Shown here: in pieces, positions 5,513 to 42,454 of the stretch
Layout: the number at the start of each line of letters is the position of its first letter
Position numbering within the stretch: position 1 is the first letter of the stretch
The notes under the pieces: model-generated
The model's database searches: none
What the model saw: the letters and a program-made list of their open reading frames with translations, nothing else
Told to the model about the DNA's origin: nothing
Assembly: GCA_034231615.1 (NCBI GenBank)
Contig: CM067307.1
Location: 5,874,513 to 5,938,512 of the forward strand
Length of the DNA stretch: 64,000 nucleotides
Source: Meghimatium bilineatum
Lineage: Eukaryota > Mollusca > Gastropoda > Stylommatophora > Philomycidae
Direction: 5' to 3'
Translations under genes and position numbers: made by a program

Positions 5513-5725
5513 CTATTTTTGTATCCAAATTGGAATACCGTCTTCTGTTGAAAGCTTTGATGTATCGAAATTGGAATACCGTCTTCTGTTGAAAGCTTTG
5601 ATGTATCGAAATTGGAATACCGTCTTCTGTTGAAAGCTTTGATGTATCGAAATTGGAATACCGTCTTCTGTTGAAAGCTTTGATGTATCGAAATTGGAAT
5701 ACCGTCTTCTGTTGAAAGTCCTGTA
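5513..5725. repeat. 41-bp minisatellite, about 5 copies
   Basis: The unit begins ATTGGAATACCGTCTTCTGT and continues TGAAAGCTTTGATGTATCGA. The period is 41, not a multiple of 3, so the overlapping minus-strand frames cycle through three peptide phases. This confirms they are not a gene. Confidence 0.95.
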
Positions 5726-6042
5726 TCTGACTATAAGAGTCACGTTTTACTAAATCACTTACAATCTGAACATTAAAAAAATCGGAATATTCTATAAACG
5801 TTCGATACTTGTACAAGCTGAAAGTATCAGCAGCAGAACACTTCTATAGTAGCCCCTCCAGTCGCGATGTTGAAAAACTCGAAATATTAGCGTACCAATT
5901 TTCTGTTGCGAGAGTAGAAAATCGTATTGCCAGGTTTGGAGGTGCCAAAAACACAATAGGGGAACCACAACCGAAATGAAGTTAGTTTCTGTAGGATTGG
6001 AGCAAGGCCGTCAGCAGTACATATTAATTAGTTTCCTTTTTA
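5726..6042. other. No recognisable feature
   Basis: Unique-looking AT-rich spacer between the 41-bp array and the MITE. Confidence 0.5.
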
Positions 6043-6155
6043 TAATTTTCGTGATTTTGGTTGATCACTATTTATATACTTGGAGCCGCATGGCAAAAGT
6101 AGACAAGGTAACTCCAAGCATATAAATAGTGATAAACGAAAATCACGACAATTAT
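6043..6155. mobile_element. Hairpin MITE-like element, copy 1
   Basis: A near-palindrome of about 110 bp. The left arm TTTCGTGATTTTGGTTGATC plus ACTATTTATATACTTGGA pairs with the right arm TCCAAGCATATAAATAGTGA plus TAAACGAAAATCACGAC. The inner loop is GCCGCATGGCAAAAGTAG. Related copies lie at 25389, 29248 and 60361. Confidence 0.75.
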
Positions 6156-6238
6156 CTTAAGTGAGGCGTGGTTAAAAAGGTTGGGAAACATTATGCTATT
6201 CTGCTGAAGGGTGTTTGGGTCATCTATACGTCCACTAA

Positions 6239-6512
<274 letters not shown>

Positions 6513-29247: not shown

Positions 29248-29345
29248 TGATTATTTCCATGCAATTCGTTGGTTTGCCACAGCTATTTTTGTCATGCGAA
29301 TCCAAGAATATAAATAATGACCAATGAAAACACGACAATATTAAA
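29248..29345. mobile_element. Hairpin MITE-like element, copy 3
   Basis: The right arm is well kept (GAATATAAATAATGACCAAT, then GAAAACACGACAAT). The left arm is diverged (TTCGTTGGTTTGCCAC). It ends 56 bp before the palindrome. Confidence 0.6.
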
Positions 29346-29394
29346 AACGTAACTAATAAAGTCATAATTTATTCGGTACATAGGGCTTATGGAT

Positions 29395-29400
29395 GATGTC
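29395..29400. other. Left target-site duplication of the palindrome
   Basis: GATGTC, repeated at 42320-42325. The match extends to TGATGTCA (29394-29401 and 42319-42326). A 6-bp duplication is the Polinton/Maverick norm. With that reading the element starts AG and ends CT. Confidence 0.75.
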
Positions 29401-30674
29401 AGTAGTATATAAGGTGCATTTGGATGTGTATTTTCCTGGCACCAATGACAAAGAAGGAAAAACCTGGCACCAAAGACAAAGAAGAATTAATTCCAAGGAT
29501 AACAAGGCTTAGCTGAGTTTTTCTGGGGGTTTCTGGGGTTTTCGTGAGGTATTTTAAAAAAAATAAAAAATTTTGAAATATTTTATTTTGAGCTTAGTTT
29601 ATTGTTAATTTTATTTATTGTCTAGAGTTTTCGTGTATTGTTTCTTTTTGAGATTTTCCAATGTTTACTATTTAATGTAGTACCGTAGGATGTCTCCGGC
29701 CTTTACTTGTTGTTATTGTTGTGATATCGTGCTATATAAATAAACTGTCAAAAGGGTAAGGGCGAGTCGTCTCTACATACACAAATGATTCTCAAAAACC
29801 GTCTACCTCTTCTGTAATGTAGGTGTTGGTAGAATACACATGTCGGTTATTGCCAGGTCGGGTGTTACATGTGATAAGTCTCCTTGGTATTATATATAAA
29901 AGGGGAATACATAATGGTCACATATATACAAACAACCATAGATAAAACATGAAGCTTTCTGAGTTGTGTTGAATAGGTTTTTTTATTCAGGTTTCCATTG
30001 TTTTAAATGAACATACATATATAATTAGCATGAAAAGTGGCTTTATGTATACTTTATTTGTAACATACATTCATATAGGCATAACACTCGTTAGTAGTCA
30101 CATAGTTCAGGGAAATACCCGTTGTTTACATATATACATACAAAGCTTAGATAAAACATGAAGATTTGAATAGTTTATTTCATGTTATGACAGGGTCGTC
30201 CACCTAAGTTAACATAAAAAACGCTTTGATGGTAGTCATAAATTTCAGGGAAATATATAATTTATACATATATACAGACAAACATAGTACCCTTTTAGTC
30301 ATCTATTCGTCGTTTTACACAAATATACAAAAAGTTAATATGCAAATTGTGCTTATGTAGGTTTTATTAGTAGCATACATTCATATATACATGAAATAAC
30401 ACCAGTTGGTAGGCACATAACTTAGGGAAATTCATTATGCTTACACATATACATTAAAAACATAGATAAAATATGAAGAGTTTGAGTGGTGTAATTCATA
30501 TTTTCGTCTTGGGACGGAGTCCCATAGCATGAAAATATGTTTTATTAATAATAGAGTGGTGGTTTAAATAGATAAAAAGGGCTTACAGAGGTTGGCCATG
30601 CCTCATATAATGCTATATATGTTATTATATACATGAAATAAGGATTAATAACTGTCGTAGAATTAGATTTTGTG
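29401..30674. repeat. Left outer noncoding terminal region of the palindrome
   Basis: 1.27 kb of AT-rich sequence without open frames. Near the tip lies a 28-bp direct repeat (CCTGGCACCAATGACAAAGA at 29435 and CCTGGCACCAAAGACAAAGA at 29463). From 29890 to 30500, diverged repeats share AGATAAAACATGAAG (29940, 30149, and AGATAAAATATGAAG at 30464) and CAGGGAAAT-type anchors. The mirror copy is 41046-42319. It is a candidate for a terminal inverted repeat with replication signals (inference). Confidence 0.7.
30497..30539. promoter_or_regulatory. Stem-loop just beyond the polymerase 3' end (left arm)
   Basis: CATATTTTC (30497-30505) pairs with GAAAATATG (30531-30539). Inside, GGGAC pairs with GTCCC around GGA. 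It lies 136 bp past the polymerase stop in the direction of transcription. It could act in RNA 3'-end formation or in replication. The function is unknown. The mirror copy is 41181-41223. Confidence 0.55.
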
Positions 30675-32282
30675 TCAGATGTTCAGGGGAATAGTCGAGA
30701 TGTCATCGGTCTGTACCTGTCGTTTTATGTAGAAATAGGACAGGGCGGCTCTATCTTGTTCGTATGTGTAAATGGCTGACTTGTGAACTTTGAAACCTAC
30801 ATTTTTACCGCCGTGTGCCTTTTGTGTGCTTAAAACAGCTAAAAATATGTTTCTGTCAAATGTGTTATGTTGATGACTCAACCCTTTAGTCGATATCTTA
30901 TTATAGCCACCAAAGCAAAAATAAGTTTTACTACAAAGAGCTATAATGCCCTTTCCTGAATATTCGAGTTTGAATAAGCCTGGACATCGTTTATCACAGA
31001 CTCTAGCTTCGATGCAATGTGGACACTCTTTCGGAGGACTGAGGCGCCTTTCTGTATGCATCTGGCAGCATTCTCGGGGAAACCACTGGTCATAAACTCG
31101 GAGAAATTCAGCTTTCATGTCTGGTTTAATGACATCGTGGAGATTGAGAGCTGATAAGGCTAAATACAAGGAATCAGTATGTGTCTTCGTTAATTCAAAG
31201 TCAGCCCTAGCGACAAATCTGTCCAGGATATCGTAGTAAAATTCCAACATTCTCATCTTGGCATACTGGTAGACGAAAAACCCTATCTGTAATGGGAGGT
31301 CCCAATTAATTTTCTTTTTACTCATCTCTACTTCAAAAATGTCGTCAGCGATCGCCGTCATGTTTTTAAATCGTGGGGAATTTATTAATTTTGATGTTTC
31401 ATCACCTCTAACATAGGATACATCTGCGTGTCTGGCCTTATTAGTCAAAGTTTTCCCATATGCCGAATTGCCCAACAACTTCATAGTGTCACTCGTGATT
31501 GAATCGCCGGGTGAAAGGTCACCATTACGTCTAGCTGCTGTGACAGTATCTCCAAACTGTTTGAAACAAGCTACAGGTTGATACTCAATCACTTGATAAA
31601 TTTCGGTTACCACCAAACCATGATTAAGATACCATTTTAACAATGGTGTAGCTAGTAGAATTTTTTTACCGAAATAGCTACCGATCAATGTACGCCTAGG
31701 CGTCGTTAATAGATTATGCTCTTCTGCATATCTCTGCATTAGAGGGTCAATGTCTGCTCTAGTAACATCTATATTTTTGAATATAGGTGTCATTTCAACA
31801 AAGTGAGCCTTCAGGTGTTCTGGTACGTGGATATCGCACTCGACTAATCCAAATAAGGTCTCGTCAGTGACAGAAACCAGAATCTGCTGAACCGATAACG
31901 GGTATTTTCTTTTGGCGTAAGATGGTTTTTGGCGAGGGAAGGTGTCGCTCAGAAAATGGGTGATCGCTAGGTCATCTCGTTTTAGTTTCTGCCATGTGCA
32001 TTCCCACATCACCACCAAATTTACTTGGTAATTCTTAATTAGGTAGTCACTAATCTCAGTAGTTTTTTCATACAAGTTGGTCAGTGATTTCTGTCTGACT
32101 GGGCTTATATCACGACCTCTGGTGATTGGGCATTCTAGATGTCCGTGGAACAGACAGCCATGAAACTGGTAAGCTGTTCGAGTTTCACTATCCCAACCAT
32201 CGACTCTAATATGTCTACGACCCAAAACAATTTCTTTCCCGTTGAACTGAGTCCTCAGGTGTACATTATTTGTATGGGCCAC
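30675..32282 (-). pseudogene. Polinton-type DNA polymerase B, C-terminal part (left arm)
   Basis: 535 codons after an in-frame TGA, in the same frame as 32283-32981. Going along it: an endonuclease-like insert with HGCLFHGH (residues 41-48) and MWECTW (92-97), typical of Polinton-like polymerases; palm motif B KLLGNSAYGK (268-277); motif C HTDS (368-371), where family B normally has DTDS; then a Cys-rich knot (C420, C423, C429, C433) and GLFKLEYSGKG. The enzyme would copy the element's DNA using a protein primer (family knowledge). The Asp-to-His change in motif C suggests loss of activity. There is no ATG at the front, so this is the continuation of one long coding region, not a separate gene. 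It ends at TGA (30675-30677). Confidence 0.85.
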
Positions 32283-32981
32283 TCAAGTCAACCATTCCCG
32301 ACATTGAATAGTGTATTTATTGAGTTTGTGCTGCTTGAATCCATCCTCTTTATACCTTCTTACTGGAAAATCTGTGGGCATATTCTGCATCAGGGCCCAT
32401 AAATATAGAGCGTTGGCCTCATAACCCTTGATGGTCTGCACAACTTTACCCTTCCTAATATGCGTATGACCGGCTTCATGGTGTCTATGAAAAATTATCG
32501 AAGGACCTCCGACAATATTGTCTCTAATCAGCTTATGTAAATCCTTCTCGCGTTTGGAGCATAAGGAAAAATGGATATTCAGTGGAAGGGTGCTGAATAT
32601 GTATTTTAAGGTGACACCTGGGACTGATATCGCATCTTTAAACATGTCTACCTTGAGGTTCGCATAGAACGATACCTGTTTCTCTAGGGCATCTAACATA
32701 GGTCTGACATCTCTTATGTTGTACCAGATCAGGAAATCGCGTAAAGTTTTCATTTTATGCTCTCTCCAAATCGTCTGACAGTAAGCATACTCCTCAGTGG
32801 AAATATTACAATTTTTCAGTTTCGAGTGAAAGGCCGCGTGTGGTGGTAAGCAATTGGCGTGTAACTTAACGGGATCTGTTATGTACTCATAACAGAAAAA
32901 ACCCTGTGTCTCCTTGACATTATAGGCAGCCAGATACTTACTGTATGAGAAACCTGGTGCTAGAAAATTCAGGACATCCAA
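32283..32981 (-). pseudogene. DNA polymerase B, Exo III to motif A part (left arm)
   Basis: 232 codons between in-frame stops TAA (32988-32990) and TGA (32283-32285), in one continuous frame with its neighbours. Residues 87-91 YNIRD match Exo III (Y-x3-D) of the proofreading domain. GGPSIIFHR (158-166) precedes motif A, GYEANALYLW (186-195). In family B polymerases motif A carries a catalytic Asp (D-x-x-x-LY). Here the position is Glu. Everything else is well conserved, so the reading frame was under selection until recently. Confidence 0.85.
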
Positions 32982-32987
32982 AAATTT

Positions 32988-33710
32988 TTAGTTTGGGGTA
33001 GATATACACATAAAATCGGAGCCTCTTTTCACTATAAAATTGAAACCTCGCTTTTCGTTCTCTTCTTGGTCACCGACGAAATACTTAATAAAGCAACCTC
33101 TAAGTACATTAAGATCATACGAACTCGAATTGAATCCTATTACTGGTAGTTCCTGTAAATATGCATCTAACCTAGTCACAAGACCTGACAAATCACCCAT
33201 CTGTGTATATACATTGGCAAATCGTTTCCGTAGCAACGTATAAGCAACCTTTGAGATTCGAGTTAGGTGATCGAGCATCCTATTCACCAACTCCTGGGGG
33301 TCGCCTGTGGTGATGAAGCAAACTGGTTCCTCCATTCCAGGAACATTAGAGGCTACAGAACACGAGAGCGGGACGTGTCTTGCTGAAAATGTAGTTACAG
33401 TTCCCCCAACTGGTAAATTGGTCTGATCGAAGTAACACTCGTAATCATAGGTTGCACGATACGGGTATACAAACTGTGTGTCCACCTCTATCCCATGGGC
33501 TGCAATAGAGTCCCAAATGGTTTCCTGAGGCCGATAAACCCCACCCTTGAAGCTTTCTATTGTCATGTCACCGTTACATGTTTTTTCGTGTCGATCTAAG
33601 TCACGTAAAACTTTCCAAAGTTTTCCACATTTAGAACATGAGAAAGCCTGGCATACTGCATTGATATCCGTGATATACATAAAATGATCATTAAAATATA
33701 AAAGTCGCAT
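32988..33710 (-). pseudogene. DNA polymerase B, exonuclease domain (left arm)
   Basis: 240 codons ending at TAA. A Cys/His finger (C25, C28, H41, C45) is followed by Exo I YDYECYF (D89, E91) and Exo II FNSSSYD (N194, D199). Both are intact motifs of the 3'-5' proofreading nuclease of protein-primed family-B polymerases. The open frame continues upstream of the first ATG to about 33791, where a TAA closes it. The preceding 394-codon frame is in another phase, so a frame change or lost junction lies near 33772-33800, in a run of A/T. Confidence 0.85.
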
Positions 33711-33771
33711 TGTGTCGTTGTAATTTGTAGTACCTCTGAGTTTTGGGGTAAGAACATGGGCTTCATCAAAC

Positions 33772-34956
33772 TCAAAGACATCTATATTTAATTAAAAAAA
33801 AACATTGCTCCAAGGCTGGAATCTGCGCTAAAGTTACACCAGCAAACTTTTTTGTAAAGACTAGGGACTGATCTTCGCACCACTGTTTTAGAAGTCGATA
33901 AACAGATTTGATTAGGGCTGTGATGGAAGCGCCTCTGTATAAGGCAAAGCAACAAAATAAACACAAATTATCGGTGTAATCTTGGTTAGTATTCAAGTTT
34001 CTTTGTAAAATGTGAACATATTTGTTATATTTAATGTGGTCTGGGGTATTACTTAAACAGCAGCCTATGGGGTAGTCTTTAATATGATAAAAGTAGAAGG
34101 AGGTGGCTGGAATTGTTTCAACAACGTACTTTGTATTTGGGCGGTTATGGTGGATGTGACTAAGTGGATCACTATCATGTAACTTAGAGATAAACGACTC
34201 ATAATCTGCTATATTATTAATAAGTACCGGCATGTCCAAGACACAAGCGTTATTGATAGAGGCATGAAAAAATCTAAACTTATTTGTTTCCCTATATCGT
34301 AAAATAGCATGATGACTGTAATTTATTTTAAATCTCTTGTTTTGCTTTACAAAAAGCGGGGTCAATAAAGACCTCCAATCTATATACGGGTCACTCTCTG
34401 GGTTATGAAAAAATGTATATGACGACAGATAGCTGTTCACGTTGTTATGTGTTCGAATAGCTGACCAATTATCTCTATATAACGGCTCTACTTCAGCTGG
34501 TAATGTGTTTATACTGTCATATTCTGAGCTCACTCTGGGTAGTTTGTTAGAACCGGGGGTGGTGTTCATGTTTGGTCGTTTGTCTAGGGTTGATGATATT
34601 GAATAGTTTGTCTTGGAGGTCTCTGAGGATCTTGAAATTGTCGTTTGAGTTGAATCTCCTGGTGTCAGTGAAGTCGACGTCTGTGGTGTGTCTGCTGTAT
34701 CTGTCATAGCACAAGATGCGTGAGCTGCTGAAAGCTTAGTCGTTGGTGAATTTGAGGTCGAGGGTTGTGTGTATGTTATGGATATATCACGCACAGTATC
34801 ATAATCAGTGCCATGTTCGTTCTGGATGTGCTGTTTCAAATTACCAATTCTGGTAAACACCCTCAGGCAGAGTGAACATTCGTTCTTGTGTCCCCTATGT
34901 GCGCTATCCATGTGTTGCGTGAGAGAAACAACACGAAAACGATAGAAAATAAACAA
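33772..34956 (-). pseudogene. N-terminal zinc-finger domain protein of the polymerase (left arm)
   Basis: 394 codons. A C2H2 finger lies at residues 27-48 (C27, C30, H43, H48). Just before it, QHMDSAH looks like the end of another finger whose Cys pair is missing, so the true 5' end is lost or lies across a splice junction. Residues 50-150 are Ser/Thr-rich linker. Residues 160-390 (WSAIRTH, FKINYSHHAILRYRE, FRFFHASINN, RPNTKYVVE) match a domain I associate with the N-terminal part of Polinton-like polymerases and related ORFs in invertebrate genomes. The frame opens without an ATG. The first ATG is at residue 16. It overlaps nothing else and runs into the exonuclease frame after a phase change. 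Confidence 0.7.
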
Positions 34957-35852
34957 AATTAACTATAAAACTAAGATTAAAATAAAGAATTTTTAATGGA
35001 ACCGCGTTAAAAGGGTTTATCTAGTTGTGAAAAGTATTAGCATGTGAGGAAACACATCTAAAACACTTCAAATGTTTATATGAGAACCAGGCTTGTAGAC
35101 AGAGAGAGATTGCTCCTCATCACGACAATTTGGTTTATAGCAAGACATGACAGCACGTAATAAACACAGAATTTAGGTACTTGTAACAGCAAAATAGAAG
35201 ATGTAGAGAACTTTCGTTGTAGGCGGAGAGTGCCCCTCATTACATATGACAATTCACTTATTTAACAAGACATCACAACCCAAAATAAACACAGAATTTA
35301 GGCGCATGTAGCAATATAAGAAAAGATATATAGGGATTTTGAGAACAATTGTTGTTGGCGGCCTTTCATGACAACAAACTTATATAACAGAACGCAAAGA
35401 ACGGAGACACCAGATTAAACAAACATTAAACAAACACAAAACAATCAAAAATATGACAATGGTAGACACGTCACTCTTAACCACAACCTATGGTTAAAAG
35501 GTAACATACACCAGTATAAATAAATAATATCTGTAATTAACATTACAGACATTAATTAAACATCTTTTATTTCACTAGTAGTAGCCAACAGCAAAGTTAT
35601 AAATCCGGTTCAACTCATTTAGTAGGACATAATAAGATCGATATTTTGTATTATATTAAGAAGACCATCGAATTATATTATAGTAGATCTTGTAGAGAAA
35701 TATACCCTGTATACAAAACACGCATTTAAGTCAGTAAATAAATATAAAGGAAATTGATTTATGTCATATGCCCGTGAAGTTGGTGAAAAATGTTATTATT
35801 TCCCTTTACTCGCACTACTTATATTTTTTTGTGCAAGGGGATATAATCACAT
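34957..35852. repeat. Inner noncoding region of the palindrome, left arm
   Basis: 896 bp of AT-rich sequence with no open frame. It contains degenerate tandem units of about 125 bp (AACACAGAATTTAGG at about 35164 and 35290). The stretch at about 34920-34990 is an inverted, diverged match to the outer region at 29560-29660 (shared ATAGTTAATTTTGTTTATT-like and TTTTCGTGT strings). It may hold the promoter of the polymerase gene (inference). Confidence 0.6.
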
Positions 35853-35869
35853 TATGGTTCACAACAAAA
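35853..35869. other. Central loop of the palindrome
   Basis: 17 unpaired bases, TATGGTTCACAACAAAA, between arm ends ATCACAT and ATGTGAT. It is the only non-palindromic part of the element and gives the two arms their polarity. Confidence 0.9.
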
Positions 35870-36763
35870 ATGTGATTATATCCCCTTGCACAAAAATATA
35901 AGTAGTGCGAGTAAAGGGAAATAATAACATTTTTCACCAACTTCACGGGCATATGACATAAATCAATTTCCTTTATATTTATTTACTGACTTAAATGCGT
36001 GTTTTGTATACAGGGTATATTTCTCTACAAGATCTACTATAATATAATTCGATGGTCTTCTTAATATAATACAAAATATCGATCTTATTATGTCCTACTA
36101 AATGAGTTGAACCGGATTTATAACTTTGCTGTTGGCTACTACTAGTGAAATAAAAGATGTTTAATTAATGTCTGTAATGTTAATTACAGATATTATTTAT
36201 TTATACTGGTGTATGTTACCTTTTAACCATAGGTTGTGGTTAAGAGTGACGTGTCTACCATTGTCATATTTTTGATTGTTTTGTGTTTGTTTAATGTTTG
36301 TTTAATCTTGTGTCTCCGTTCTTTGCGTTCTGTTATATAAGTTTGTTGTCATGAAAGGCCGCCAACAACAATTGTTCTCAAAATCCCTATATATCTTTTC
36401 TTATATTGCTACATGCGCCTAAATTCTGTGTTTATTTTGGGTTGTGATGTCTTGTTAAATAAGTGAATTGTCATATGTAATGAGGGGCACTCTCCGCCTA
36501 CAACGAAAGTTCTCTACATCTTCTATTTTGCTGTTACAAGTACCTAAATTCTGTGTTTATTACGTGCTGTCATGTCTTGCTATAAACCAAATTGTCGTGA
36601 TGAGGAGCAATCTCTCTCTGTCTACAAGCCTGGTTCTCATATAAACATTTGAAGTGTTTTAGATGTGTTTCCTCACATGCTAATACTTTTCACAACTAGA
36701 TAAACCCTTTTAACGCGGTTCCATTAAAAATTCTTTATTTTAATCTTAGTTTTATAGTTAATT
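35870..36763. repeat. Inner noncoding region of the palindrome, right arm
   Basis: Mirror of 34957-35852. TTCTGTGTTTATT anchors of the 125-bp degenerate repeat are at about 36424 and 36549. It differs from the left arm only by the T-run length and by T at 36309. Confidence 0.6.
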
Positions 36764-37948
36764 TTGTTTATTTTCTATCGTTTTCGTGTTGTTTCTCTCA
36801 CGCAACACATGGATAGCGCACATAGGGGACACAAGAACGAATGTTCACTCTGCCTGAGGGTGTTTACCAGAATTGGTAATTTGAAACAGCACATCCAGAA
36901 CGAACATGGCACTGATTATGATACTGTGCGTGATATATCCATAACATACACACAACCCTCGACCTCAAATTCACCAACGACTAAGCTTTCAGCAGCTCAC
37001 GCATCTTGTGCTATGACAGATACAGCAGACACACCACAGACGTCGACTTCACTGACACCAGGAGATTCAACTCAAACGACAATTTCAAGATCCTCAGAGA
37101 CCTCCAAGACAAACTATTCAATATCATCAACCCTAGACAAACGACCAAACATGAACACCACCCCCGGTTCTAACAAACTACCCAGAGTGAGCTCAGAATA
37201 TGACAGTATAAACACATTACCAGCTGAAGTAGAGCCGTTATATAGAGATAATTGGTCAGCTATTCGAACACATAACAACGTGAACAGCTATCTGTCGTCA
37301 TATACATTTTTTCATAACCCAGAGAGTGACCCGTATATAGATTGGAGGTCTTTATTGACCCCGCTTTTTGTAAAGCAAAACAAGAGATTTAAAATAAATT
37401 ACAGTCATCATGCTATTTTACGATATAGGGAAACAAATAAGTTTAGATTTTTTCATGCCTCTATCAATAACGCTTGTGTCTTGGACATGCCGGTACTTAT
37501 TAATAATATAGCAGATTATGAGTCGTTTATCTCTAAGTTACATGATAGTGATCCACTTAGTCACATCCACCATAACCGCCCAAATACAAAGTACGTTGTT
37601 GAAACAATTCCAGCCACCTCCTTCTACTTTTATCATATTAAAGACTACCCCATAGGCTGCTGTTTAAGTAATACCCCAGACCACATTAAATATAACAAAT
37701 ATGTTCACATTTTACAAAGAAACTTGAATACTAACCAAGATTACACCGATAATTTGTGTTTATTTTGTTGCTTTGCCTTATACAGAGGCGCTTCCATCAC
37801 AGCCCTAATCAAATCTGTTTATCGACTTCTAAAACAGTGGTGCGAAGATCAGTCCCTAGTCTTTACAAAAAAGTTTGCTGGTGTAACTTTAGCGCAGATT
37901 CCAGCCTTGGAGCAATGTTTTTTTTTAATTAAATATAGATGTCTTTGA
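36764..37948 (+). pseudogene. N-terminal zinc-finger domain protein of the polymerase (right arm)
   Basis: Identical at protein level to 33772-34956: C2H2 finger C27/C30/H43/H48, Ser/Thr-rich linker, and the WSAIRTH to RPNTKYVVE domain. The upstream sequence lacks the Cys pair of the preceding half-finger. The frame ends just past a T9 run (37918-37926) next to AATTAAATATAG, where phase is lost relative to the next coding block. Confidence 0.7.
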
Positions 37949-38009
37949 GTTTGATGAAGCCCATGTTCTTACCCCAAAACTCAGAGGTACTACAAATTAC
38001 AACGACACA

Positions 38010-38732
38010 ATGCGACTTTTATATTTTAATGATCATTTTATGTATATCACGGATATCAATGCAGTATGCCAGGCTTTCTCATGTTCTAAATGTGGAAAAC
38101 TTTGGAAAGTTTTACGTGACTTAGATCGACACGAAAAAACATGTAACGGTGACATGACAATAGAAAGCTTCAAGGGTGGGGTTTATCGGCCTCAGGAAAC
38201 CATTTGGGACTCTATTGCAGCCCATGGGATAGAGGTGGACACACAGTTTGTATACCCGTATCGTGCAACCTATGATTACGAGTGTTACTTCGATCAGACC
38301 AATTTACCAGTTGGGGGAACTGTAACTACATTTTCAGCAAGACACGTCCCGCTCTCGTGTTCTGTAGCCTCTAATGTTCCTGGAATGGAGGAACCAGTTT
38401 GCTTCATCACCACAGGCGACCCCCAGGAGTTGGTGAATAGGATGCTCGATCACCTAACTCGAATCTCAAAGGTTGCTTATACGTTGCTACGGAAACGATT
38501 TGCCAATGTATATACACAGATGGGTGATTTGTCAGGTCTTGTGACTAGGTTAGATGCATATTTACAGGAACTACCAGTAATAGGATTCAATTCGAGTTCG
38601 TATGATCTTAATGTACTTAGAGGTTGCTTTATTAAGTATTTCGTCGGTGACCAAGAAGAGAACGAAAAGCGAGGTTTCAATTTTATAGTGAAAAGAGGCT
38701 CCGATTTTATGTGTATATCTACCCCAAACTAA
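38010..38732 (+). pseudogene. DNA polymerase B, exonuclease domain (right arm)
   Basis: Protein-identical to 32988-33710. Exo I (YDYECYF) and Exo II (FNSSSYD) are intact. It ends at TAA (38730-38732), and the next block continues in the same frame two codons later. Confidence 0.85.
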
Positions 38733-38738
38733 AAATTT

Positions 38739-39437
38739 TTGGATGTCCTGAATTTTCTAGCACCAGGTTTCTCATACAGTAAGTATCTGGCTGCCTATAA
38801 TGTCAAGGAGACACAGGGTTTTTTCTGTTATGAGTACATAACAGATCCCGTTAAGTTACACGCCAATTGCTTACCACCACACGCGGCCTTTCACTCGAAA
38901 CTGAAAAATTGTAATATTTCCACTGAGGAGTATGCTTACTGTCAGACGATTTGGAGAGAGCATAAAATGAAAACTTTACGCGATTTCCTGATCTGGTACA
39001 ACATAAGAGATGTCAGACCTATGTTAGATGCCCTAGAGAAACAGGTATCGTTCTATGCGAACCTCAAGGTAGACATGTTTAAAGATGCGATATCAGTCCC
39101 AGGTGTCACCTTAAAATACATATTCAGCACCCTTCCACTGAATATCCATTTTTCCTTATGCTCCAAACGCGAGAAGGATTTACATAAGCTGATTAGAGAC
39201 AATATTGTCGGAGGTCCTTCGATAATTTTTCATAGACACCATGAAGCCGGTCATACGCATATTAGGAAGGGTAAAGTTGTGCAGACCATCAAGGGTTATG
39301 AGGCCAACGCTCTATATTTATGGGCCCTGATGCAGAATATGCCCACAGATTTTCCAGTAAGAAGGTATAAAGAGGATGGATTCAAGCAGCACAAACTCAA
39401 TAAATACACTATTCAATGTCGGGAATGGTTGACTTGA
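38739..39437 (+). pseudogene. DNA polymerase B, Exo III to motif A part (right arm)
   Basis: Protein-identical to 32283-32981. Exo III YNIRD, GGPSIIFHR, and motif A with Glu for the usual Asp. It ends at TGA (39435-39437), and the following block continues in frame without an ATG. Confidence 0.85.
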
Positions 39438-41045
39438 GTGGCCCATACAAATAATGTACACCTGAGGACTCAGTTCAACGGGAAAGAAATTGTTTTGGGT
39501 CGTAGACATATTAGAGTCGATGGTTGGGATAGTGAAACTCGAACAGCTTACCAGTTTCATGGCTGTCTGTTCCACGGACATCTAGAATGCCCAATCACCA
39601 GAGGTCGTGATATAAGCCCAGTCAGACAGAAATCACTGACCAACTTGTATGAAAAAACTACTGAGATTAGTGACTACCTAATTAAGAATTACCAAGTAAA
39701 TTTGGTGGTGATGTGGGAATGCACATGGCAGAAACTAAAACGAGATGACCTAGCGATCACCCATTTTCTGAGCGACACCTTCCCTCGCCAAAAACCATCT
39801 TACGCCAAAAGAAAATACCCGTTATCGGTTCAGCAGATTCTGGTTTCTGTCACTGACGAGACCTTATTTGGATTAGTCGAGTGCGATATCCACGTACCAG
39901 AACACCTGAAGGCTCACTTTGTTGAAATGACACCTATATTCAAAAATATAGATGTTACTAGAGCAGACATTGACCCTCTAATGCAGAGATATGCAGAAGA
40001 GCATAATCTATTAACGACGCCTAGGCGTACATTGATCGGTAGCTATTTCGGTAAAAAAATTCTACTAGCTACACCATTGTTAAAATGGTATCTTAATCAT
40101 GGTTTGGTGGTAACCGAAATTTATCAAGTGATTGAGTATCAACCTGTAGCTTGTTTCAAACAGTTTGGAGATACTGTCACAGCAGCTAGACGTAATGGTG
40201 ACCTTTCACCCGGCGATTCAATCACGAGTGACACTATGAAGTTGTTGGGCAATTCGGCATATGGGAAAACTTTGACTAATAAGGCCAGACACGCAGATGT
40301 ATCCTATGTTAGAGGTGATGAAACATCAAAATTAATAAATTCCCCACGATTTAAAAACATGACGGCGATCGCTGACGACATTTTTGAAGTAGAGATGAGT
40401 AAAAAGAAAATTAATTGGGACCTCCCATTACAGATAGGGTTTTTCGTCTACCAGTATGCCAAGATGAGAATGTTGGAATTTTACTACGATATCCTGGACA
40501 GATTTGTCGCTAGGGCTGACTTTGAATTAACGAAGACACATACTGATTCCTTGTATTTAGCCTTATCAGCTCTCAATCTCCACGATGTCATTAAACCAGA
40601 CATGAAAGCTGAATTTCTCCGAGTTTATGACCAGTGGTTTCCCCGAGAATGCTGCCAGATGCATACAGAAAGGCGCCTCAGTCCTCCGAAAGAGTGTCCA
40701 CATTGCATCGAAGCTAGAGTCTGTGATAAACGATGTCCAGGCTTATTCAAACTCGAATATTCAGGAAAGGGCATTATAGCTCTTTGTAGTAAAACTTATT
40801 TTTGCTTTGGTGGCTATAATAAGATATCGACTAAAGGGTTGAGTCATCAACATAACACATTTGACAGAAACATATTTTTAGCTGTTTTAAGCACACAAAA
40901 GGCACACGGCGGTAAAAATGTAGGTTTCAAAGTTCACAAGTCAGCCATTTACACATACGAACAAGATAGAGCCGCCCTGTCCTATTTCTACATAAAACGA
41001 CAGGTACAGACCGATGACATCTCGACTATTCCCCTGAACATCTGA
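39438..41045 (+). pseudogene. DNA polymerase B, C-terminal part (right arm)
   Basis: Protein-identical to 30675-32282. Endonuclease-like HGCLFHGH and MWECTW, motif B KLLGNSAYGK, motif C as HTDS, and a Cys-rich knot near the end. It stops at TGA (41043-41045). Together the arms hold two copies of the same interrupted polymerase, transcribed away from the central loop. Confidence 0.85.
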
Positions 41046-42319
41046 CACAAAATCTAATTCTACGACAGTTATTAATCCTTATTTCATGTATATAATAACA
41101 TATATAGCATTATATGAGGCATGGCCAACCTCTGTAAGCCCTTTTTATCTATTTAAACCACCACTCTATTATTAATAAAACATATTTTCATGCTATGGGA
41201 CTCCGTCCCAAGACGAAAATATGAATTACACCACTCAAACTCTTCATATTTTATCTATGTTTTTAATGTATATGTGTAAGCATAATGAATTTCCCTAAGT
41301 TATGTGCCTACCAACTGGTGTTATTTCATGTATATATGAATGTATGCTACTAATAAAACCTACATAAGCACAATTTGCATATTAACTTTTTGTATATTTG
41401 TGTAAAACGACGAATAGATGACTAAAAGGGTACTATGTTTGTCTGTATATATGTATAAATTATATATTTCCCTGAAATTTATGACTACCATCAAAGCGTT
41501 TTTTATGTTAACTTAGGTGGACGACCCTGTCATAACATGAAATAAACTATTCAAATCTTCATGTTTTATCTAAGCTTTGTATGTATATATGTAAACAACG
41601 GGTATTTCCCTGAACTATGTGACTACTAACGAGTGTTATGCCTATATGAATGTATGTTACAAATAAAGTATACATAAAGCCACTTTTCATGCTAATTATA
41701 TATGTATGTTCATTTAAAACAATGGAAACCTGAATAAAAAAACCTATTCAACACAACTCAGAAAGCTTCATGTTTTATCTATGGTTGTTTGTATATATGT
41801 GACCATTATGTATTCCCCTTTTATATATAATACCAAGGAGACTTATCACATGTAACACCCGACCTGGCAATAACCGACATGTGTATTCTACCAACACCTA
41901 CATTACAGAAGAGGTAGACGGTTTTTGAGAATCATTTGTGTATGTAGAGACGACTCGCCCTTACCCTTTTGACAGTTTATTTATATAGCACGATATCACA
42001 ACAATAACAACAAGTAAAGGCCGGAGACATCCTACGGTACTACATTAAATAGTAAACATTGGAAAATCTCAAAAAGAAACAATACACGAAAACTCTAGAC
42101 AATAAATAAAATTAACAATAAACTAAGCTCAAAATAAAATATTTCAAAATTTTTTATTTTTTTTAAAATACCTCACGAAAACCCCAGAAACCCCCAGAAA
42201 AACTCAGCTAAGCCTTGTTATCCTTGGAATTAATTCTTCTTTGTCTTTGGTGCCAGGTTTTTCCTTCTTTGTCATTGGTGCCAGGAAAATACACATCCAA
42301 ATGCACCTTATATACTACT
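41046..42319. repeat. Right outer noncoding terminal region of the palindrome
   Basis: Mirror of 29401-30674. I compared the noncoding arms line by line and found no mismatch in this part. It ends CCTTATATACTACT. Confidence 0.7.
41181..41223. promoter_or_regulatory. Stem-loop just beyond the polymerase 3' end (right arm)
   Basis: Mirror of 30497-30539, located 136 bp after the polymerase stop. Confidence 0.55.
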
Positions 42320-42325
42320 GATGTC
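42320..42325. other. Right target-site duplication of the palindrome
   Basis: GATGTC, matching 29395-29400. The following AAAGGTCACAGG is unlike the inverse of the left flank. Confidence 0.75.
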
Positions 42326-42454
42326 AAAGGTCACAGGTTATCTAATACATAAAGAAGCTAATTTCTTCATTTTTCTTGATTTATGATACAATTTTCACAA
42401 AAAATGGAAACTATGAAAATATGCATACAACGTGCCCACTAAACATACAGAAAA

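Follow-up and report, generated by a model that had tools for sequence, protein, structure and literature searches.

A mobile palindrome family carrying PolB in the Meghimatium bilineatum genome: a possible Polinton-derived satellite copied through a hairpin

The window analysed here, a 64,000-nt stretch of the Meghimatium bilineatum genome (C10:5874513-5938512), contains an inverted dimer of 12,919 bp at window positions 29401-42319, each arm of which carries a gene for a Polinton-type DNA polymerase (PolB). On balance, we favour the view that this dimer is a degenerate copy of a mobile element derived from Polintons, one that is an inverted dimer over its whole genome and is copied via a hairpin. 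We read this element as a PolB-only, Polinton-derived satellite with a hairpin-forming palindromic genome, for which we infer the replication cycle, the helper and any packaging. Genome searches took in the 1.61-Gb assembly of 32 contigs; Cn labels denote contigs of this host assembly, and small letters separate copies on one contig.

The inverted-dimer form, proposed in an initial annotation of the window, was confirmed by both arm alignment and repeat search. The left arm (29401-35853, + strand) starts at the outer terminus AGTAGTATATAAGG and the right arm (35869-42319, - strand) mirrors it, so that the element reads AGTAGTATATAAGG...CCTTATATACTACT, the second terminus being the complement of the first. 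The repeat search placed arms of 6438 nt at 29394-35831 and 35889-42326, 100% identical by its rounding, and arm-versus-arm alignment gave a single C/A substitution at left-arm position 35411, a 2-nt T-run difference at 35824-35825 and a non-pairing centre. Both of these differences had been seen in the initial annotation and were found again, while its 17-nt loop shrinks to an unpaired centre of 15 nt (35854-35868) under strict pairing. The GATGTC that it had reported on both sides is indeed there as a 6-bp target-site duplication (29395-29400 and 42320-42325), and a self-comparison of the window detected no more inverted matching at the element locus outside this duplication. The left flank (29301-29400, + strand) is part of a dispersed host repeat that the insertion has split. 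Searching the genome with the flanks joined around one GATGTC (best 40 of 1430 candidates scored) gave 42 rows. Two of these are the locus, and 19 of the 40 non-self rows cross the join by 5-14 nt at 79-85% identity; such rows may mark empty sites in paralogous copies.

Long-read data are known to contain inverted duplications that are artefacts, and a read or contig folded back during assembly has to be considered. Yet the arms end exactly at the terminus, the flanks differ, the arms have private differences, paralogous matches cross the joined flanks, and the 6-bp duplication recurs in 24 of 25 copies, as described below. We therefore rejected an assembly artefact on the different flanks, the duplications and the private differences in the assembly sequence, and regard it as hardly credible.

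The exact 23-nt terminus occurs 38 times in the genome, as 18 inward pairs plus two singletons, versus 0 for the control, and a terminal core in which 15 bases are fixed was matched 95 times versus 4 for the control. The arm's outer 2 kb gave at least 41 match rows, 36 of which form 18 inward pairs; this is a lower bound, since the best 40 of 519 candidates were scored. AGTAGT is present at both ends of the copies read. A perfect 6-bp duplication, as the initial annotation had claimed for the window copy, flanks 24 of the 25 copies with both ends read (10/11, 9/9, 2/2 and 3/3 by batch, with seven further copies tried in the batch of two not yielding both ends), and the lone exception, C24a, has a similar hexamer that is a few bases off. 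The element is mobile, its insertions being marked by 6-bp duplications and AGTAGT termini. The check proposed at the outset, a search for other palindromic copies with different 6-bp duplications, was thus positive, and the idea of a single captured replication intermediate is contradicted by what the genome contains: a family of many copies, divided into lineages, in which deletion derivatives and tandem multimers also occur. Two further loci were seen with these termini. At G000:C4:28151947-28176898, terminus matches recur every 1.94 kb on the + strand, followed by - strand ones about 2.14-2.15 kb apart, and these termini seem to have been absorbed into a satellite-like array. Two 17.06-kb AGTAGT-bounded copies with the same internal layout, C7:69996080 and C7:70240365, lie 244 kb apart and are probably a segmental duplication.

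Several lineages can be told apart. Family A comprises six copies of 12.9 kb (the window copy, C20a, C20b, C16a, C4a and C1), with 1-4 substitutions among their left arms. The related copy C24a (C24:69192174-69206754) is 131-137 substitutions from family-A left arms and about 840 nt longer. Family B (C24b, C24c, C2 and C12, with C16b assigned by size and centre) measures 14.09 kb and consists of four 3.5-kb units. In C24c (C24:42708792-42722885) the arm is a two-unit tandem with most of PolB gone; in window-arm coordinates the first unit joins 1-2508 to 5526-6453 and the second joins 28-2508 to 5526-6328. The unit junction is identical in the four B copies read, and occurs twice in C15 (C15:2150419-2171635), a 21.2-kb copy with three units in the arm read; C11 (C11:56317076-56324011), at 6.94 kb, has one unit per arm. 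The internal deletion of about 3 kb is present in all units read of C24c, C11 and C15. A third group, k, is defined by a PolB C-terminal piece 85-89% identical to the window's. Finally, in a 13.72-kb copy, the 5 kb read of one arm comprise the inner end and a 217-bp unit arrayed 18 times; the longest frames in that part do not exceed 82 codons, and four more copies of this size have the same kind of centre.

Among 36 two-ended copies, 23 fall between 12.8 and 14.6 kb and 13 lie outside this range, from 6.4 to 21.2 kb; many of the 23 are burst siblings, and the number of independent ones is smaller. Copies that lack most of PolB reach this range by other means, namely four 3.5-kb units (14.09 kb) or the 217-bp array (13.72 kb), the latter read in one arm of one copy. 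The size clustering is at most a hint of packaging.

In the window copy the two PolB genes face outward from the centre, and each is split by in-frame stops and a frame change into four pieces, so that both arms are broken. On the - strand of the left arm these are the 535-aa C-terminal piece, in which motif C is altered (30675-32282), a 234-aa piece with the motif A region, which has a private D-to-E change in both arms (32283-32987), a 267-aa piece with YDYECYF, presumably an exonuclease-type motif (32988-33791), and, in another frame, the 396-aa N-terminal piece with a zinc-finger-like start (33772-34962). Their mirrors on the + strand lie at 36758-37948 (N-terminal piece), 37929-38732 (267 aa), 38733-39437 (234 aa) and 39438-41045 (C-terminal piece). 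We take the 535-aa piece to carry motifs B and C; the window PolB is altered in both A and C. Pfam matched a window piece to DNA_pol_B_2 weakly (E 2.7e-4, below the curated cut-off), and a 726-aa PolB piece of a relative had no Pfam match at E 0.1. The assignment to PolB relies on the Polinton genes that surround the polymerase in the relatives, together with the motifs. Searches of PDB returned nothing by sequence and one chance-level match by profile, PHROGs gave only weak matches, and three stretches in viral contigs fitted a pattern, none of them confirmed as relatives. The initial annotation was right about a Polinton-type PolB, which in the window copy is not one frame. As a separate observation, tblastn aligned PolB residues 18-101 (window 31980-32231, - strand) weakly with Salicola phage SCTP-2 hypothetical protein 121 (36.7%, E 6e-4) and, over the same stretch, with an uncultured phage (28.8%, E 5e-4), which faintly suggests an endonuclease-like stretch in common with phages.

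The wider PolB family separates the palindromes from the Polintons of the same genome. We searched the genome with the 535-aa C-terminal piece and scored the best 81 of 849 candidates; among these 81, 34 of 39 matches at 81% identity or more stand in 17 divergent pairs, versus 0 of 42 at 65-66%. The window-type PolB is 66% identical over 535 aa to that of the Polintons. Seven of these 17 pairs have a frame open over 1449-1453 codons in each arm, and PolB is broken in all family-A arms listed, one per copy. Eleven between-lineage comparisons over 535 codons, which are not independent, gave ratios of nonsynonymous to synonymous substitution rates (dN/dS) of 0.147-0.188, and these codon comparisons indicate purifying selection on PolB.

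Two of the 65-66% relatives were read, to points short of their right ends, and have PolB followed by PC4-type, adenain-type protease, rve+chromo integrase and packaging ATPase genes. Pfam, run on one of the two, matched Peptidase_C5 (5.5e-5), rve+chromo (3.7e-15 and 1.8e-7) and Adeno_IVa2 (3.8e-5), with no match for two further frames. An integrase lies within 12 kb of 40 of the 42 PolB matches at 65-66%. Inside the 36 AGTAGT-bounded elements, none of 113 integrase matches fell (best 113 of 644 candidates, so that a distant integrase could escape). Scanning of 16 of 22 arms for frames of at least 100 codons found no capsid, ATPase or protease gene, and the sole frame outside PolB was a 105-codon one antisense to it, in keeping with the PolB-only mobile unit that the initial annotation had offered as one option.

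Two Polinton-family loci are themselves mirror-symmetric by coordinates, one at the PolB end and the other at the integrase end. At C8:59635423-59647347, a pair of inferred Polinton ends and a pair of PolB matches are centred on one axis (59641385.0 and 59641384.5); at C25:77850718-77864403, the axes of an integrase pair and of a pair of ATPase-side pieces agree within 2.5 nt. These loci lend some colour to the idea that every palindrome arose separately, when a complete Polinton gave off a snap-back by-product that was inserted a single time and was inert from the start. However, the AGTAGT palindromes form PolB lineages of their own, 66% from the Polinton ones, with dN/dS below 0.19 and with multi-copy groups that share one centre, which refutes this account in part and leaves it improbable. 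Other loci were noted by coordinates: C1:70016538-70026513 may be an unequal left-end dimer, and convergent integrase pairs occur at C23:68764197 and C2:21324095. C25:38229233/38249987 looks like two adjacent Polintons, and at G000:C22:51861466-52200916 seven broken same-strand integrase copies about 53-59 kb apart are probably a long tandem segmental duplication.

The two arms of a copy evolve together. With gap columns and the final 60 nt dropped, the arms agree in every copy at 126 of 147 variable sites in family A plus C24a, and at 87 of 131 in family B. Arm-to-arm copying keeps the arms of one copy alike while lineages diverge. Long inverted repeats can convert, and the same agreement could come about if a palindrome arose once by accident and moved by its long inverted ends, with chromosomal gene conversion keeping the arms alike. 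The window's private change, present in both arms beside an asymmetric centre that was kept, is what conversion tracts would leave, and both arms carry the same fixed indel in 10 of 24 patterns for family A with C24a, and in 16 of 30 for family B. Within bursts, however, arms of the same copy are barely closer than arms of different copies, which argues for little homogenising after insertion: the mean arm-to-arm and between-copy distances are 2.7/3.0 (A), 10.7/17.8 (B), 3/4, 1/4.3 and 2/6. These values fit arms that were equal at insertion and then drifted, with later conversion at most modest. The centres of the lineages also lie at different places, although central deletions could give that as well. 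We consider accident plus conversion rather unlikely, and prefer a palindrome rebuilt during its own hairpin replication.

A symmetry centre was found in 31 of 43 copies (the window copy and ten others, C11, 14 of 17 midpoints in one batch and 4 of 11 in another, and a further, longer stretch). The near-identical family-A arms have three different centres; the window's 15 nt recur in C20a, C16a and C4a and are replaced in C20b and C1. The turning point of family B precedes that of family A by about 125 nt, and the k copies C25 and C4 turn about 101 nt before C22, with 97-99 nt in common that are 100% identical. In the B and k loops the through-sequence continues to a short inverted match, ATTTA/TAAAT in C2 (one base off in the other B copies) and AG/CT in the k copies, and then reverses. 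One fixed loop for all copies, which had been expected, is ruled out by the three family-A centres and the other turn-around sites in the lineages. Three pairs of copies have the same centre in opposite orientation, so whole palindromes also move unchanged.

Taken together, we propose the following cycle for an element laid out as terminus, PolB, centre, PolB, terminus. PolB would begin protein-primed copying at either terminus, as its family and the end motif suggest. The displaced strand, self-complementary throughout, could fold into a 6-7-kb hairpin and so restore a double-stranded origin, and copying round the hairpin, or mismatch repair in it, would rebuild the dimer and equalise the arms. 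New centres might come from a strand folding back on a few complementary bases or from small central deletions. Since no integrase match lies inside the 36 elements, insertion would probably occur in trans, with complete Polintons as the source of the rve integrase. The family itself may have originated from a snap-back, defective-type Polinton genome that kept PolB. More tentatively, and with considerable doubt, such elements could represent a class of virus satellites in eukaryote chromosomes: self-complementary PolB replicons that replicate as full-length hairpins and depend on complete Polintons for insertion and perhaps for packaging.

Several points weigh against this cycle. Protein priming and the hairpin intermediate are deduced rather than observed, and in the two readable centre junctions a central deletion with microhomology fits equally with snap-back priming. 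Four family-A copies have the T-run and an asymmetric centre in common, which means that palindromes are often copied entire, with no re-forming step, and the window's motif-A change reached both arms although its centre was not re-formed. In family A alone, the arms agree at just 1 of 14 variable sites, that D-to-E change, private to the window copy among the six, and young copies therefore show little homogenising. The dN/dS between A and C24a is 0.32, as expected if family A is decaying. No palindrome centre was found in 12 of 43 copies. Full-length reading of two of these, C9a and C3, showed that they are not palindromes. The remaining ten were read over 201-401 nt at the midpoint, which lies within arm sequence in three copies and resembles the 217-bp array by eye in three others (C8c, C23a and C15cg), so that unequal arms are likely in this group. 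As for the helper, no AGTAGT-bounded element with an integrase was found, and the inferred left terminus of the Polintons read, AGAAAAGCTTAGACC, differs from AGTAGTATATAAGG, which makes the complete Polintons a candidate only. Nor was a complete Polinton with the palindrome's termini found among the inward terminus pairs, part of which were read inside. C9a and C3, for their part, have the same termini as the palindromes and outer sequence in common at 77-85%, and C9a has no frame longer than 129 codons. Elsewhere in the window (1-64000), minisatellites are abundant (27 rows with a score of at least 300) and several yield long spurious frames; an Rfam search of the window gave no match.

Virus replication is known to yield inverted-dimer genomes as by-products, and here such dimers look like a lasting, selected and mobile lineage, with complete Polintons as the likely helper in the same genome. 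This opens testable questions about Polinton replication, the production of snap-back genomes and a satellite role, and raises that of how a genome tolerates many near-perfect 13-kb palindromes. A search by title and start of abstract returned no paper on palindromic Polintons, with subscription journals, Repbase and most preprints outside its reach.

Among known systems, Foldback-type transposons have very long inverted ends, as the element does, but use different enzymes and have no PolB. In symmetric inverted-duplication adenovirus genomes, a protein-primed replicon has become a palindrome of one end; these are laboratory by-products, whereas the element is a chromosomal family. Like Polintons/Mavericks, of which the vertebrate ones have (AGT)2//(ACT)2 ends and 6-bp duplications in the account drawn on here (PMC8097293), the element has a homologous PolB, a 6-bp duplication and (AGT)2 ends. 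Unlike them, it has no integrase, capsid, ATPase or protease gene that we found, and in place of a single linear gene order it is an inverted dimer whose arms act as 6-7-kb terminal repeats. The snapback genomes of adeno-associated virus (AAV), as described in PMC8235507, are self-complementary subgenomes of left-end and right-end types; the element's genome is likewise self-complementary, and the C8 and C25 mirror loci resemble the two types. As to snapback parentage, the element's PolB has a Polinton relative, and no parent with the same terminus was found. AAV snapbacks are subgenomic molecules in stocks of a Rep-dependent parvovirus, whereas the element persists as a lineage inserted in many copies, under selection and equipped with a polymerase of its own. 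Our verdict is that the element is a Polinton derivative which by gene content is not itself a Polinton, and that it probably works like a snapback satellite genome turned chromosomal family.

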